This document shows positions 40,856 through 56,599 of a stretch of 64,000 bases of DNA, piece after piece (the first letter of the stretch is position 1; each line of letters opens with the position of its first letter). The stretch is taken from NCBI GenBank assembly GCA_001563875.1, contig LKMN01000001.1, positions 1-64,000 of the forward strand. The letters are read 5' to 3'. This DNA is from Nanohaloarchaea archaeon B1-Br10_U2g1. GTDB lineage: Archaea > Nanohalarchaeota > Nanosalinia > Nanosalinales > Nanosalinaceae. The notes under the pieces were generated by a model. That model made no database searches and was not told the DNA's origin. It saw only the letters and a program-made list of their open reading frames with translations. The position numbers were made by a program, and so were the translations under genes.

Positions 40856-42103
40856 CTACTCCTTGCTTTCTTCTTCCTCTTTCTCTACTTCTTTCTCTGC
40901 CTTTTCTTCTAGGTTTGGAACCATCTCTTGTGTATCTGCTGCCTTTGCGATCGAGGAGGTATTCATCTTAGGAGTCATCTGCTCCGTCTTCCCCTCCTTC
41001 ATCTCTTTCAAATCCTTGCCAACTTCGGAGACAAACTCCTTGGTCTCTGTCTTGAGATCGTATATCTCCTTTTCGTTGACGTCTTCCATTTGCTTGTCTT
41101 TTATCTTCTCTATTACGTCTTCCCATCGGTCGAACATTTCTACATGTTCTTCTCCCAGGTCCAGATTATCTGCTACTACTTCTGGTAGTTCTTCTCTATC
41201 TTCTGGAGGCTCTATGTCTCGTGCTTTCAGTGCGGCGACGTTCGCTTTTAAGAACTGTTTATAGTCTTCGACAATATTTCTAACTTTCTTTTGTGCGCCT
41301 AGTTGAGAGACCAGCTGATGCATTCTTCTTACGAAGTCGTCTGCCTTTTCTAAATGCTTCTCTACAGCCTCTCCGGTAACCTTTTCAGGTTCCTTCTCTC
41401 CTAGGTCTCCGAAGTCGTATAATTCTTCAGCTATTTCTATGTATTCATCTTCTAGTAGCTCGTTTTCTACAAACATTTCGTCTAGGACTTCTGGAACTTT
41501 TTCTTTCGGTGGCGGTGTTTTTCCTTCAAGCATTATCGGTGCTTGTCCGGCGTTTGCCATTACTTGTTCGAGTTTGTGAGGTATTGAGGATTTGAAGTTT
41601 TTCTCGGCTTTCTTGTATCCTGCTGCAGCCAGTTTTAGTCTCTTACTTACGGATTCCTGTGTTGCTTCAATTTTACCTCTTTGGAGCAGTCTTTTTGCCG
41701 GCATGAATATTCCGGTGTCGTACACCGGTTCTCCGTTTCTTACGGCTTCTATTGCTAGTGGTTCTCCTTTTCTCAGTGAGTCCCAGAACTCTGTTAGGAA
41801 TGGGAAGTACTGTATTGTTATTCTATCATCTGTTTCCTTTGCTGCTTCTGTTACTTTTTGTTGTATCTTTTTCCGTGCGTCTTCTGGAACGTCCTCTCTC
41901 AGCTTTGTGTCGTCTAGTATTACAAGTGTATCGATATCACTGTCGTATCCGTGCTCGCCTTTTGGTACACTTCCCCATACTGCAACTACTTTTAGTTTGT
42001 CGCCTAGTTTTTCCTCTAGTTTGTCTGAGAACTCTTTTGCTGCTTCCATTCTTCTTTCTTGAGACTTCTTCCGCATCTCTTTCATCTTGTCTTTGGAACT
42101 CAT
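40856..42103 (-). CDS. Nucleotidyltransferase with helical extension
   Basis: A 415-residue protein. Residues about 20-125 form a pol-beta-type nucleotidyltransferase fold: WGSVPKGEHGYDSDIDTLVIL has the GS loop and DSD metal residues. The rest is helical: a region resembling HEPN-type bundles (LKLAAAGYKKAEKNFKSS, about 155-300) and a charged tail ending EKEEEESKE. The usual HEPN R-x4-6-H site was not found. Standalone minimal antitoxin/toxin pairs are much smaller. Function unknown; substrate may be a tRNA or small molecule. Confidence 0.75.
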   Translation of the reverse strand: MSSKDKMKEMRKKSQERRMEAAKEFSDKLEEKLGDKLKVVAVWGSVPKGEHGYDSDIDTLVILDDTKLREDVPEDARKKIQQKVTEAAKETDDRITIQYFPFLTEFWDSLRKGEPLAIEAVRNGEPVYDTGIFMPAKRLLQRGKIEATQESVSKRLKLAAAGYKKAEKNFKSSIPHKLEQVMANAGQAPIMLEGKTPPPKEKVPEVLDEMFVENELLEDEYIEIAEELYDFGDLGEKEPEKVTGEAVEKHLEKADDFVRRMHQLVSQLGAQKKVRNIVEDYKQFLKANVAALKARDIEPPEDREELPEVVADNLDLGEEHVEMFDRWEDVIEKIKDKQMEDVNEKEIYDLKTETKEFVSEVGKDLKEMKEGKTEQMTPKMNTSSIAKAADTQEMVPNLEEKAEKEVEKEEEESKE

Positions 42104-42164: not shown

Positions 42165-42749
42165 ATGGTAGACAAAAAACGTATGGTGGAGTACCTTACT
42201 TTTGCGGATGTCCACGAAAATCTAGATGATAAAGGATCAGAACAGCTCTATGACTCGCTCTTTAATACTGCTGATTTGGAACCTGACTTCGGTCAGCCTG
42301 ACTATATCCTTCTACACGGAGGCCCTAGTGAGAAGAAAGAGAAACAACGTTTTAGAGCTTTTGAAGATCTATTGACAGATTTAAACAAAGATAAGCTCCC
42401 CTACTTGTTAACTACGCCGTCCTATAGAAGCAAGATTGAAGAATCAGATAAAGTTACGGAAAACGATTTTATTTACTGTCCTATAAGATCTGAAAGCACA
42501 TTCGGAGAAGTTAACACGCTTTCAGAACAGATAGAACCTGAAGAAACGGTTATATCGGTTACAAGCGACTACCATGTGCCACGCCTAGAGTCAATGATGA
42601 ACAAATTACTTGAAGAAGATATAGATTACTTAGTGGTCGGTCAGAAATACAGCTCTGAAGAGAAGAATTATAGAAGTAAATGGAGATCCGAATTCATAAG
42701 TACAGTACTTCCACAAAACATCAAGGATGTAGGAAAGGATATTCTCTAA
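42165..42749 (+). CDS. DUF218/YdcF-like protein
   Basis: A 194-residue Rossmann-like protein. The end-region motif SESTFGEVNTLSEQIE...VISVTSDYHVPRLESMM matches the E-x-x-T-x-x-N and DYHxPR motifs of the YdcF/SanA/ElyC family, and DYILLHGGPS replaces the glycine-rich strand. No membrane anchor. In bacteria the family acts in envelope metabolism; the role here is unknown. It ends one base before the convergent 862-residue gene's stop. Confidence 0.65.
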   Translation: MVDKKRMVEYLTFADVHENLDDKGSEQLYDSLFNTADLEPDFGQPDYILLHGGPSEKKEKQRFRAFEDLLTDLNKDKLPYLLTTPSYRSKIEESDKVTENDFIYCPIRSESTFGEVNTLSEQIEPEETVISVTSDYHVPRLESMMNKLLEEDIDYLVVGQKYSSEEKNYRSKWRSEFISTVLPQNIKDVGKDIL

Positions 42750-45338
42750 CTACTTATACTCTTCCTGCATCCATTCTCCCGGCTGATTGTTGTTCTCCAT
42801 AGAAGCATTACTGGAGTAAGTATAGTCAAACTGTTCGGCCTCAAGCAGGCTCTGTAAAGGATCGAAAGCGTGTTGCTCGATCTTCGCCCATTCACGGTCA
42901 TAAGTAGGTCTATCCATACCGAAGAAACGTGCCATTAAGGCCTCTTTCTCGTCACGGTACTCTTCACCAGGATTAACCTTAGAAGGATCAAGTTCTTCAG
43001 GAGATACTCCTAACTCAATAAGGTTCATAGCGATACGTGCTGTGTATACCACTCCTCTATCGTCACCGCCGACCTCATACATTACATATGCTTTCTCGTT
43101 ATCTCGTCCGAAACCGGCTTTAACCATGTTCCACAGCCATTCGTAGAGCTGCTTATCACCTTTATCCCATGGACCGTGAAGTGTACGAGACTGAGAGGTT
43201 TCAAGACCAGGTTTCATCAGGTGCCACATCCTCATAATCTTGGCTAGAGGTTTTTCCTTTTCAACTCCTATATCGTACTTACTCGCTAATCCGCTTTTAA
43301 CCAAGTTTTCCTCCTGTTCAATCAGGTTTTCCATAGTCTTCCATGGATCTTCACCGAAGGTAGCAACGTGTTCCAAGTCTAAAGTAAATTTAGCAGGCAT
43401 ACCGTATAGGTCAGGATGGATGTCGTCTAGTTTGTCTCTAGCCCCTATATTTATAGCTCTTGCAGCCGCTACAGTATGTCGAGGTCTCCAGATCTTGTAA
43501 GGCTGTCTTGTATCTCCGGGCATAGCCTCCAGATTTACTCCTATACCGAACTCGTTCATCCACTCAATCCACGTAATATTACTGAATTTTTCCAGTACAT
43601 CTTCCTCTTCTTCGTACTCATGAACCAGATACTCTCTTATCGCCTTATCATCGATCATGAACTGGCCTTCTTGCTGGGTGAAGTGACCCCATACATAGCA
43701 TGCTGCTGAAGCTGCTGCAACATCTTCTTGGAACTCTCTGTTGTTTTCAAGTAAGTCTAGGAACCCCTTTCCATCATTTTTCCTCGGTTCCAAAAGATCG
43801 ATATCGTATTCGCTCCATTTTTGTTTGATTAGTAGCTCCCACAAGAACTTGGGGGCTTCCCTTTTCTTGTAGCCTTTATCACTGAAGTCTTCATCCGCAA
43901 CAGCCATCCATGCTGGGATAATTTTGTATATAACGTTTGACTCCATCCACATCTGGTTCTGTAGAGATCCTGTAAGTCGTTGTAGGAAGAGTAGATGTTG
44001 GTCTTCGGTACTGTTCTCATTGTCGAAGTAGCTATCATCTCCTGCTACCATGTTCTCAGCATGATTTCTTATTTTGTCTCTGTTACTAGTGAATGCCTCT
44101 TCAATTATTCTTTGCTGAGGGATTTCAAAGTTCCTAGAAACTGCCGCAAGTTTGTTTTGAATAGGGATTAGCGGTTCTCCTCCTTCCTTTTTGTATTCCC
44201 AAAGTTTTTCTATAGCTCTTTCTAGAGGCTCTTCTATAGCTTCAAGAATCTCTTCATCTTCGGTTATTAACTCTCCATTCTGTAGAACTCTGTTAAGCTC
44301 TAACTCTTCAGATTCAAGAAGTCTGTAGATTTCGGGAAGTCTCCTAATCATCGAAAGGTCATAGTTCACACTTAAACCTCGGATTACGGTGTCCAGGTCC
44401 TCTAAACTGTTAATTTCTACAGGTGACGTAATTTGTGGACTTCTGCTAGTTAACTCTATTGTTAGATCTTCGTCTACCGGTTCTTTTAGTAGGTCGTACC
44501 AAATAGTTGTTATCTCGGAGTCTCCTGCGGCACCGGTTCCTATCATAGTCACCTTCTCCTTAAGTCTGCTTTCACGAGATTTCGATCTTTCAAGGAATTC
44601 TTCGTTCGCTTTTTCGTCAATAGTTTTCCTCCATTCGCTGTCAAACCTGTCGGAAAAGTCAGAGAATATATCTTGGTAGTATCTGTACTCGTTCTGTTCT
44701 ATCGTATCTACTATGAAAACTCTGTAAAGTCTTCTTAGGAACTCCTCGTTACGGAATATGTTTTTATTCTCATCATCTTTTCCTTTCATTACTTCGTTTT
44801 TCAAGTCGGTCAGGCTATATCCGAAAGGATCAAGGCTTGTGTCCTGTGCTCTTTCCTCTTCTATTGCAGGTCTTGGGGAGGTACATATGTGGGGGTTAAT
44901 TCGGGAGATATTGAATCCGAAGTCTCTCTCCTTTTTACTCCGGTTTTCCGCTGTTTTTTTGAACGAAGCAAACTGTTCTAGATACTGTGTAAAATATTTA
45001 TGAGTCGGATCGTACTGAGCTCTATAAGGTGAGGTATAGCCTACATCCGGATTGCTGTGGAGAGATATGTCTATCTCTAATCCGTTAATAACGTCCAGCA
45101 TCTGGTCTCTATCAATCTGAAACGTCGCAGGATTGTTGATTATCACCTCCATCACACTTCCTCCTCTCATAGCCAGACTTCCTATCCTTTCATGCATGGC
45201 CGAAGGCACTCCTGGCGCCGCATCCATACCCGAAGTGTTTCCTACCTCGTAATTAAGGTCGGGAAAACCCTCTACCTCATACTTATCCTTTACCTGAAAG
45301 TTCTCTTTCACCGCGTTTAGAATGTATTTGAAACTCAT
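42750..45338 (-). CDS. Giant xylose-isomerase-like TIM barrel split by a helical insert
   Basis: An 862-residue protein. The C-terminal third matches the last half of the xylose isomerase/AP endonuclease-2 barrel strand by strand: GVNLEAMPG (E604), TLDLEHVATFG (D654, H657), MWHLMKP (H706), TLHGP (H721) and YVMYEVGG (E755). The small isomerase at 55.8 kb shows the same order. N-terminal strands (ISLHSNP with H94; NPHICTSP with H150) would be the first half. Residues about 165-590 between them are helical and unlike anything I know. It is coupled to the upstream gene by a TAATG overlap. Conserved metal ligands suggest an active enzyme; substrate unknown. Confidence 0.7.
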   Translation of the reverse strand: MSFKYILNAVKENFQVKDKYEVEGFPDLNYEVGNTSGMDAAPGVPSAMHERIGSLAMRGGSVMEVIINNPATFQIDRDQMLDVINGLEIDISLHSNPDVGYTSPYRAQYDPTHKYFTQYLEQFASFKKTAENRSKKERDFGFNISRINPHICTSPRPAIEEERAQDTSLDPFGYSLTDLKNEVMKGKDDENKNIFRNEEFLRRLYRVFIVDTIEQNEYRYYQDIFSDFSDRFDSEWRKTIDEKANEEFLERSKSRESRLKEKVTMIGTGAAGDSEITTIWYDLLKEPVDEDLTIELTSRSPQITSPVEINSLEDLDTVIRGLSVNYDLSMIRRLPEIYRLLESEELELNRVLQNGELITEDEEILEAIEEPLERAIEKLWEYKKEGGEPLIPIQNKLAAVSRNFEIPQQRIIEEAFTSNRDKIRNHAENMVAGDDSYFDNENSTEDQHLLFLQRLTGSLQNQMWMESNVIYKIIPAWMAVADEDFSDKGYKKREAPKFLWELLIKQKWSEYDIDLLEPRKNDGKGFLDLLENNREFQEDVAAASAACYVWGHFTQQEGQFMIDDKAIREYLVHEYEEEEDVLEKFSNITWIEWMNEFGIGVNLEAMPGDTRQPYKIWRPRHTVAAARAINIGARDKLDDIHPDLYGMPAKFTLDLEHVATFGEDPWKTMENLIEQEENLVKSGLASKYDIGVEKEKPLAKIMRMWHLMKPGLETSQSRTLHGPWDKGDKQLYEWLWNMVKAGFGRDNEKAYVMYEVGGDDRGVVYTARIAMNLIELGVSPEELDPSKVNPGEEYRDEKEALMARFFGMDRPTYDREWAKIEQHAFDPLQSLLEAEQFDYTYSSNASMENNNQPGEWMQEEYK

Positions 45339-46969
45339 TATTTCATCGTGTAGAGCCCTAAACCAATTTTAAGGTCATAGTAGTAGCTGAACTTTATTTC
45401 GTTCTTTAAATCAGCCAGAGGCGATTCGTTGTCAGGTATGTAGTACTTGTCGTAGTTTCCTGTAAACTTCCTGACAGCTATTTCGAAGTCTTTTCTTGCT
45501 CCGTTACTTTGTTCACTTTCCTCGCTGGTCGCGTAGTTGGTGTCCAGTATGTTATCCACTGCTTTCAGATAGTCCTTTGAGTATTTTTCAGCTATAGATT
45601 CCGGTGTCTCGAAACCGTCTTCAACCCTTCTTATGAACGATGAGAAATCCAGCGGAGGACTTTCATCTATTTTCTTACCAACTTCCTCTCTAAGCTCTCT
45701 TATAGCTAATCCTTTATCTACACGAGCGCTCTTGAACTCTTCACCTTCATCTGTTTCAAATTCCCCGGTATAATCTTCCATTAGCTGTTCATACAGTTCT
45801 TGACTCCTGTTGATCTTATCTCGGAATAGATTGTCAAAAACATGTTCGCAGACTACAGCAGGACGCCACTGGACTATTCCTGCGGTTGGACCTTTTGTAG
45901 GGCTGTTAGGATTGTCTCCTCCTGCAATATTGACGTGTACACAATGCATATGAACTAACTTGTAATGTGTGGCGTTATCTTCGCTTTCCACTTCAACCAG
46001 ACCTCCTTCCTCGTTCTCTAAGGGCTGGTATGCTATAAACTCCATCTGTTTGAACATCGTTGCGTAACCTGTGAACGTCATAAACCGGTTCAGGTCCTCA
46101 CCTATCTCCTCCTGACTTTTCTGATTGATCATTACCATGTCTCTGACGTATGGAGCTAGCCACTCTTTTGTCTCTTCTATAGCTCTCTCAATTCTTCTTA
46201 ATTCTTTTTTCAGATCTTTTAGTTTATTCTGTATCTCGCTTCCGTACATGTCTTTCCATTTCTCATACATGGTGTACTTCTTCTTTAGGATTGCCTTCTC
46301 ATTCGCTGGTAAGTTCGCCAGCTTCCCTGTACCTCCATCATCCTTAGGTTTTAGATCTTCTAAGGACTTCATCTCATTGAAGTCTGAGACTATAGTTGGA
46401 TAGATATTGTTGTCTCGCAGAAATCTCAGGGCTTGTTCGTCAGCCCCTTGTCCTCCGGCTCCAGCACCGTCTACCAGCTGTACAAAGTCGCCCTTAATCA
46501 CGTCTTCGTCGCCGGTACGTATATCTTCAATACGGGATCTCAGCTTGCGTATGTCATGTTGGAGTAGGTGTTTTGATTTCCTTAGCTGTTCAAGTCCTTG
46601 CATGTTTGTTTTAATATTCTGTTCGGCCTGCTGCTTTCTCTGTACCATCTCTTGGTGCATCGTGTTCTGAGGGCTAACAAAGATTTTCTCCTCTGTTTTC
46701 GCAACATTCCAGCCAAGATCTGTATCAAACTTATCTGCAGCTGAGAGTATGAATGTATAAGGCATTCCCTGGGTCCCTGAACTCACCTTAACATTTTTGT
46801 ATGGTTCTCCTAACACAGGAAGCAAGGAATAAGGGTCAGATGAATCCTTTTGAGCTTTCACTAGCTCTTTAAAACTATGTACGCCAGTCATCTCCGGACT
46901 ACCATTCACTTCGAAGGTATGTCCAAACTCACAAGTGTCTCCATCCTCTCCAGAGCTCATATATTTCAT
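45338..46969 (-). CDS. Large protein of unknown function, partner of the split TIM barrel
   Basis: A 543-residue soluble protein. It has two coiled-coil stretches (about 105-150 and 230-275), a glycine-rich GDFVQLVDGAGAGGQGADEQ segment at 160-180, and a metal-like cluster NATHYKLVHMHCVHVN (H335, H340, H342, C343, H345) followed by VVCEHVFDNLF. No family recognised. The stop and the next start share one base (TAATG), so both proteins are made together and probably form a complex. Confidence 0.7.
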   Translation of the reverse strand: MKYMSSGEDGDTCEFGHTFEVNGSPEMTGVHSFKELVKAQKDSSDPYSLLPVLGEPYKNVKVSSGTQGMPYTFILSAADKFDTDLGWNVAKTEEKIFVSPQNTMHQEMVQRKQQAEQNIKTNMQGLEQLRKSKHLLQHDIRKLRSRIEDIRTGDEDVIKGDFVQLVDGAGAGGQGADEQALRFLRDNNIYPTIVSDFNEMKSLEDLKPKDDGGTGKLANLPANEKAILKKKYTMYEKWKDMYGSEIQNKLKDLKKELRRIERAIEETKEWLAPYVRDMVMINQKSQEEIGEDLNRFMTFTGYATMFKQMEFIAYQPLENEEGGLVEVESEDNATHYKLVHMHCVHVNIAGGDNPNSPTKGPTAGIVQWRPAVVCEHVFDNLFRDKINRSQELYEQLMEDYTGEFETDEGEEFKSARVDKGLAIRELREEVGKKIDESPPLDFSSFIRRVEDGFETPESIAEKYSKDYLKAVDNILDTNYATSEESEQSNGARKDFEIAVRKFTGNYDKYYIPDNESPLADLKNEIKFSYYYDLKIGLGLYTMK

Positions 46970-55846: not shown

Positions 55847-56599
55847 CTAATTTTCTATCCAGCCTTCCAGTTTTTCAAGTGATAAGAGCTGGTAGTCCGG
55901 GTCTTCTGTAAATATCTCCATACACCACGTACTGTTGAAGTCGTTCATCCGGTCTATTAGAGGTTGGAACTCGATCTCTGAGCTTCCTAAAGGTAGATGC
56001 ATGTCTCGTCCCTCACGCGTATCTGTAAGATGTAGGTGTGAGATTAAATGTGAGTATTCTTCTAGAAACTCTTCGGTTTCTTCCTGTCCTACTTCTGAGA
56101 AGGCATGTCCCGTGTCAAGACACATTGAGACTTCAAGTTCTTCCAGTAAAGGTCCTAGTTCAAACAGTTCAAGTCCTCTCCACTGTCCAAGATTTTCAAA
56201 ACAGACTTCTATACCGTGTTTCTCTCCTATCTCATCAAGTCTTTCTATCTGATCAGGAAGTCTTTCGATCTCATCTTCTGCGTCGTCGTAACGCATATCT
56301 GCGTGTGTAACAACTTTTTCTGCCCCTAGTTCCTTCGCGAATTTTATCATCCTTTCTTGGTACTCGAGTAAACCTTGGTTTATCTCAGGTACTGAAGTTG
56401 CTAAAGGCTGTTTAAAGGGAAGATGGATAGTTATTTCGAATTCTTTCTCTTCTAAAGCTTCTTTAACTTTTTCCGGTTGTATCTCCTCTACAGGTCTTTC
56501 ATGCTCTCCTATACCGAACTCAATGAAGTCGAACTCTTTAGGTGTGTTTTCTATGTGTTTTATGAGATCTCCTTCCGGCCCTAGACTTATTCCTTTCAT
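55847..56599 (-). CDS. Sugar phosphate isomerase/epimerase (xylose-isomerase-like barrel)
   Basis: A 250-residue TIM barrel of the AP endonuclease 2 superfamily. Ligand strands: EVCFENLGQ, SMCLDTGHAFSEVG, ISHLHLTDT, DMHLPLGSS and WCMEIFTE. This is the full set of metal residues. It overlaps the ValRS gene by 4 bases, so it is translated after it. Substrate unknown. Confidence 0.88.
   Translation of the reverse strand: MKGISLGPEGDLIKHIENTPKEFDFIEFGIGEHERPVEEIQPEKVKEALEEKEFEITIHLPFKQPLATSVPEINQGLLEYQERMIKFAKELGAEKVVTHADMRYDDAEDEIERLPDQIERLDEIGEKHGIEVCFENLGQWRGLELFELGPLLEELEVSMCLDTGHAFSEVGQEETEEFLEEYSHLISHLHLTDTREGRDMHLPLGSSEIEFQPLIDRMNDFNSTWCMEIFTEDPDYQLLSLEKLEGWIEN

Follow-up and report, generated by a model that had tools for sequence, protein, structure and literature searches.

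A predicted AP-endonuclease-2-type TIM barrel split by a helical insert, and its conserved gene neighbourhood in three phyla of DPANN archaea

The split-barrel gene and its surroundings

The window, that is, the whole stretch of 64,000 nucleotides that was analysed, comes from a genome assembly of 710 kb in 26 contigs, and its relatives among the named records are Nanohaloarchaea, for example Candidatus Nanosalina sp. J07AB43 and Nanohaloarchaea archaeon strain M3_22. It contains an undamaged open reading frame with an ATG start that encodes an 862-residue protein, hereafter TIM. The stop codon of the adjacent upstream gene, which encodes a predicted coiled-coil protein (CC), shares one base with the start codon of TIM, and an MNT-HEPN-type nucleotidyltransferase is encoded two genes downstream (Table 1). 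Homologues of TIM were identified in three phyla of tiny, symbiotic archaea: Nanohalarchaeota, a second phylum (that of genome G031), judging by size and kinship probably Nanoarchaeota sensu lato with Woese- and Pacearchaeota, and a third (that of genome G040), on the same grounds probably Aenigmarchaeota; with these identities, TIM would be a trait of the 'cluster 2' DPANN.

Table 1. Features of the split-barrel locus and of related sequences (window positions unless a contig or locus is named)
Feature	Position	Strand	Size or residues	Basis or content
Coiled-coil partner gene (CC)	45338..46969	-	543 aa	ORF, adjacent homologues, predicted model
Split-barrel metalloenzyme gene (TIM)	42750..45338	-	862 aa	intact ORF, homologues in three phyla, AlphaFold2 model
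TIM N-terminal half barrel	44874..45257	-	28-155	strands 1-4, H94 and H150; predicted strands, profile alignment
TIM insert	43545..44873	-	156-598	mostly helical, W500 and G551-H552 before strand 5; predicted helices, conservation
TIM C-terminal half barrel	42969..43544	-	599-790	strands 5-8; predicted strands, spliced-profile alignment, PF01261 matches in homologues
C-half ligands				E604, D654, (E656), H657, H706, H721, E755
TIM C-terminal extension	42753..42968	-	791-862	conserved; conservation, pLDDT
DUF218-like ORF	42165-42749	+	194 aa	lies between TIM and the nucleotidyltransferase
MNT-HEPN-type nucleotidyltransferase	40856..42103	-	415 aa	PF01909, 9.6e-8
Ordinary AP_endonuc_2 barrel	55847-56599	-	250 aa	97.5 bits; comparison used in the earlier note
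True endonuclease IV	G000:C16:106758-107525			170.9 bits; same contig, outside the window
F3	G000:C21:7960-8115		219-aa frame	
F3	L217:5292-5810			

Fold and metal site of the split barrel

The AlphaFold2 model of TIM, obtained with a 15-row alignment as input (mean pLDDT 80.8, pTM 0.79), contains the eight strands of the PF01261 fold in their usual order, with four strands (30-35, 62-66, 90-94 and 144-147) preceding and four (600-604, 649-654, 702-706 and 750-755) following a long helical stretch, which places the predicted insert between strands 4 and 5. The earlier note, made from the letters of the sequence, had taken the first 165 or so and the last 270 or so residues for the two halves of a metal-binding barrel, with residues 1-165 and 590-780 expected to close into one; a single eight-stranded barrel is what the prediction returned, and the co-linear alignment with endonuclease IV described below agrees with this division. 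In the model, H94, H150, E604, D654, H706 and E755 are located at, or just past, the C-terminal ends of the strands.

Searches of Pfam and NCBIfam with TIM itself yielded nothing above sub-threshold noise (for example, DUF5364 at E 0.09), PDB sequence profiles gave nothing significant, and a single-sequence scan of the genome contigs with TIM found no matches. When TIM was aligned with 29 shorter homologues, PF01261 was matched by 25 of the 30 sequences at E<=0.1 (best 3.9e-19), and in the whole-genome search one homologue scored above the curated cut-off of this family (44.7 vs 31.1 bits), which TIM itself does not reach.

Comparison of the uncut family with the endonuclease IV profile aligned the N-terminal half alone, and the insert columns were therefore excised and the remainder compared with an endonuclease IV alignment led by E. 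coli Nfo. The spliced family is co-linear with endonuclease IV over 184 columns (E=3.4e-9, probability 96%), a result that depends on an alignment dominated by the shorter homologues from the second phylum; the alignment dominated by Nanohalarchaeota (A1), when spliced, reaches an E of only 0.003, with the register unchanged. The N-terminal half by itself gives E=2.7e-7. Among the controls, ten column shuffles yielded E values of 0.13-0.82, the reversed profile 0.10 and the insert alone 0.66, and with the halves swapped, only the N-terminal half aligned. Once the insert is cut, H94, H150, E604, D654, H657, H706 and H721 of TIM are in register with H69, H109, E145, D179, H182, H216 and H231 of Nfo; in the model, E755 lies at the end of strand 8, the place of E261. 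A gap in the row of the window protein shifts the stretch around H706 in the wide alignment A5; the His of the 'MWHL' motif falls on Nfo H216 both in the family consensus and in alignment A1.

The columns that are invariant within the Nfo alignment itself are H69, H109, E145, D179, H182, H216, D229, H231 and E261, the ligands of the trinuclear zinc site. Eight of these nine positions are conserved among 69 TIM homologues: E604, D654 and E755 in 99%, H94, H706 and H721 in 97%, H150 in 96% and H657 in 94%. The ninth, equivalent to D229 (residue 719), is occupied by H, T, G, P or Q, so that the three-metal site of endonuclease IV is not demonstrated for TIM. Residue 656, which aligns with Nfo C181, is a Glu in 97% of the same homologues, and D-x-E-H is therefore a signature motif of the TIM family; E656 may have taken over the role of D229. 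The five metal-site residues named in the earlier note (E604, D654, H657, H706 and E755) are thus each conserved in 94-99% of the homologues, but its list lacked H94 and H150 from the N-terminal half. This level of conservation, at all ligand positions tested bar the D229 equivalent, against an overall identity among homologues that falls to about 20%, speaks against a barrel turned into a structural scaffold with no catalysis left; we regard this as very improbable, despite an insert larger than the barrel and a divergence too great for any Pfam family to recognise TIM.

The best Foldseek matches of the model in the PDB are L-ribulose 3-epimerase, D-allulose 3-epimerase, YcjR and AsfvAP, which all belong to the same superfamily, with probabilities of 0.98-1.00, E values above 0.05 and best alignments of only about 130-140 columns, short as expected of a local aligner that crosses an insert; no convincing fold match was detected among viral structures. 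The epimerases and YcjR, the nearest solved folds, share with TIM the core Glu-Asp-His-Glu quartet of PF01261 (E604, D654, H706 and E755, conserved in 97-99% of the 69 homologues). The main rival to the interpretation that we favour follows from these matches, namely that TIM is a sugar or sugar-phosphate isomerase or epimerase with one metal bound at the quartet and with the insert shaping the substrate pocket or an oligomer interface, given that members of this superfamily do isomerise or epimerise sugars. However, these enzymes are compact barrels of 260-297 residues without an insert. Moreover, H94, H150, H657 and H721 are as conserved as the quartet and match the additional ligands of endonuclease IV, which, to our knowledge, mononuclear epimerases do not need, and the steady neighbours of the gene are not genes of sugar metabolism but those for a coiled-coil protein and a nucleotidyltransferase. 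We therefore consider the epimerase reading possible but not probable. The earlier note had likened the barrel to the xylose-isomerase/AP-endonuclease-2 type; with the extra conserved histidines in register with Nfo, the site is more similar to that of endonuclease IV than to that of xylose isomerase.

This similarity falls short of membership, and we do not classify TIM as an endonuclease IV proper, because one of the nine ligands and the compact architecture are missing and the genome encodes a separate, ordinary endonuclease IV. Where Nfo has 36 residues between H109 and E145, the equivalent positions in the TIM family are 182-512 residues apart; TIM further differs from Nfo in the loss of D229, the Glu of D-x-E-H and the conserved C-terminal extension. 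That TIM is a second endonuclease IV, an AP endonuclease of DNA repair equipped with an accessory domain, would be compatible with the co-linearity and with most ligands being in register. It is nevertheless unlikely, considering that an ordinary endonuclease IV is already encoded in this genome (170.9 bits) and in most of its relatives, that D229 is lost and E656 is new, that TIM is two to three times longer, and that its neighbours are not repair genes. Taken together, the alignments and the model indicate that TIM is a single predicted TIM barrel of the AP-endonuclease-2/endonuclease IV superfamily that is split between strands 4 and 5; the novelty lies in the split of the barrel and in the conserved set of genes, whereas both fold and metal site are of a familiar type.

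The insert (about residues 156-598, or some 440 residues) is predicted to consist mostly of helices, with a small strand pair (287-294 and 307-311). All TIM homologues examined carry it, none being without, and the distance between H150 and E604 ranges from 182 to 356 residues in the second phylum, from 282 to 503 in Nanohalarchaeota and from 342 to 512 in the third phylum. The helical insert of about 400 residues in the earlier note was thus correctly recognised as helical and large, but it is not a one-off, being a trait of a whole DPANN family with well over a hundred homologues. Within the insert, W500, G551 and H552, located in helices that precede strand 5, are conserved across phyla (88%, 86% and 93% of the 69 homologues, respectively), which argues that it is not free decoration. 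No PDB entry matches the insert in sequence, or in fold at E<=0.001. With its insertion at this point, TIM illustrates the extent to which the endonuclease IV fold can be remodelled while the metal site stays nearly unchanged. At the other end of the protein, the C-terminal tail of the family has a conserved W-x-x-E-x-[YL]-[RK] ending, and its last 27 or so residues are predicted to be disordered (in 836-862, almost every residue has a pLDDT under 50); a conserved, disordered tail is what a docking peptide would typically look like.

Phyletic distribution and conserved neighbours

TIM is present in 26 of the 28 sampled genomes of Nanohalarchaeota (12/12 of high quality), in 141 of 156 from the second phylum (38/39) and in at least 21 of 34 from the third (6/7). 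A second TIM profile, run against 394 archaeal genomes, found 64 positive, all from the same three phyla, and TIM is absent from about 310 other archaeal genomes searched. The distribution of CC matches that of TIM, with 27/28 genomes of Nanohalarchaeota (12/12 of high quality), 145/156 of the second phylum (38/39) and 30/34 of the third (7/7). Genomes of 0.5-1.2 Mb that have shed most biosynthesis yet keep TIM and CC in nearly all sampled species must obtain from this pair something that the cells cannot lose, and such near-universal retention in genomes of this size points to a housekeeping role.

Across about 69 loci from the three phyla, CC is found near TIM in 56, and in 51 of these lies immediately upstream on the same strand, with a gap of at most 14 nt in 39 of the 51; these counts are not independent given that gene order is correlated through ancestry. 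The association lends indirect support to the new partner envisaged in the earlier note; the new substrate that it envisaged as well is plausible. The predicted structure of CC (pLDDT 71, pTM 0.51) features two long helices paired antiparallel and has no convincing fold match in the PDB. A match of CC to the mitoribosomal protein mS35 (PDB sequence profile, E 0.04) was discarded, as it rests on a low-complexity, charged helix. Coiled-coil proteins conserved over similar DPANN lineages have been described in cluster 2 DPANN (PMC11291902); those adjoin type-IV pilus genes, whereas CC adjoins TIM and the nucleotidyltransferase.

In 49 loci (22, 24 and 3 in Nanohalarchaeota, the second and the third phylum, respectively), the nucleotidyltransferase gene lies near TIM on its downstream side and in the same orientation, one or two genes away in most of them; in part of the third phylum, both this gene and CC are located elsewhere in the genome. 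Its N-terminal domain is of the Pol-beta/MNT type, matches a PDB MNT antitoxin at 0.0008 and retains the GS...SDID motif, with G44, S45, S55, D56 and D58 invariant (alignment A7). The Rx4H form of the HEPN Rx4-6H motif is absent in 22 of 22 Nanohalarchaeota proteins, that of the window included, and in 3 of 3 from the third phylum, and is present in 21 of 33 from the second. Strong orthologues (384 bits or more) were found only in the three phyla with TIM, mostly in fixed order; weaker relatives, often of 600-680 residues, occur in other DPANN. At nine loci (L213, L214, L218, L220, L225, L229, L235, L236 and L237), two paralogues of about 260-315 and 360-415 aa, usually in tandem, lie downstream of TIM. 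Members of the DUF218-like family recur between TIM and the nucleotidyltransferase in five Nanohalarchaeota loci, and an ORF of about 642 residues separates the two genes in three related Nanohalarchaeota (L050, L051 and L053).

As described in the relevant part of the work of Makarova and colleagues (PMC6393860), the MNT-HEPN family cls.004259 (NEQ050) is DPANN-specific, conserved, of a house-keeping nature and unexplained, and a toxin-antitoxin origin was suggested for it. By description, the gene adjacent to TIM agrees with this family: both are MNT nucleotidyltransferases with a C-terminal helical domain that contains Rx4H in many relatives, and both are DPANN-specific and found in a house-keeping context. 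Neither a coiled-coil partner nor a TIM barrel is linked to cls.004259 in that part of the article; now that a gene of this type is tied to a metalloenzyme whose active site can be predicted, and to a candidate scaffold, its function becomes testable.

The suggested origin, the relatedness of the downstream gene to MNT antitoxins and its weak nucleotidyltransferase scores in PADLOC would fit a toxin-antitoxin or defence module formed by TIM, CC and the MNT-HEPN protein. The matches of this protein in PADLOC and PHROGs are, however, generic nucleotidyltransferase ones, and TIM and CC have no match in either database. The distribution is near-universal and vertical with conserved gene order, not mobile and patchy as in HEPN-MNT toxin-antitoxin systems, and the HEPN Rx4H motif is missing from all 22 Nanohalarchaeota proteins examined, all of which renders a defence function quite improbable.

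A further recurring neighbour, denoted F3, is a pair of proteins of about 170 residues. In many second-phylum loci their genes lie upstream of CC in divergent orientation, in the third phylum they are close to TIM, and 25 loci are of either kind; in Nanohalarchaeota, F3 occupies a separate locus away from TIM. F3 has no Pfam match and nothing significant among PDB sequence profiles. Several other DPANN genomes encode F3-like proteins next to the 600-680-residue nucleotidyltransferases (600-627 residues at loci L282, L284 and L289), without TIM or CC, which suggests that the nucleotidyltransferase and F3 form an older core module.

Predicted function

The interpretation that we favour, with a probability of about 0.5, is that TIM is the metal-dependent hydrolase subunit of a so far undescribed housekeeping complex of DPANN archaea that probably acts on nucleic acid. 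TIM would be the catalytic subunit, an AP_endonuc_2 barrel with an endonuclease-IV-like multi-metal site, and, with phosphodiesterase-type chemistry, would most likely hydrolyse a phosphodiester in nucleic acid or in a nucleotidylated molecule. Metals would be held by H94/H150/E604 and by E604/D654/H706/E755, and a third site might be formed by H657/H721 and probably E656, standing in for the lost D229 ligand. The helical insert could cover the mouth of the active site as a lid or as a substrate-selecting domain, and the C-terminal, predicted-disordered tail would probably dock to CC within the putative complex. Judging from gene order and co-occurrence, TIM probably shares a process with the downstream MNT-HEPN nucleotidyltransferase.

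A more specific scenario, which we offer tentatively, is that CC, TIM, the MNT-HEPN nucleotidyltransferase and F3 are parts of an undescribed machine that attaches nucleotides to, and removes them from, RNA or protein. The nucleotidyltransferase and F3 would be the older core, given that they also cluster in other DPANN genomes, and the barrel and CC would be later additions dating to the ancestor of the three phyla.

In the open-licence literature, searches returned nothing relevant on an insert-bearing TIM barrel in DPANN, on its pairing with CC and the MNT-HEPN gene or on arCOG06583, which, with this scope, is no proof of absence. In Nanoarchaeum equitans, NEQ368, a protein of 293 aa that belongs to arCOG06583 and is annotated as endonuclease IV, is among the most abundant proteins (PMC3149612, Table 2).

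In genome G005 (L058:7205-8894 and L047:6120-7795), the split-barrel gene is present in an additional, broken copy and a CC gene is read as two overlapping frames, which reflects either an assembly error or decay. Among the high-quality genomes of the second phylum, G053 alone has neither TIM nor CC, and thus provides a natural test of the dispensability of this pair.
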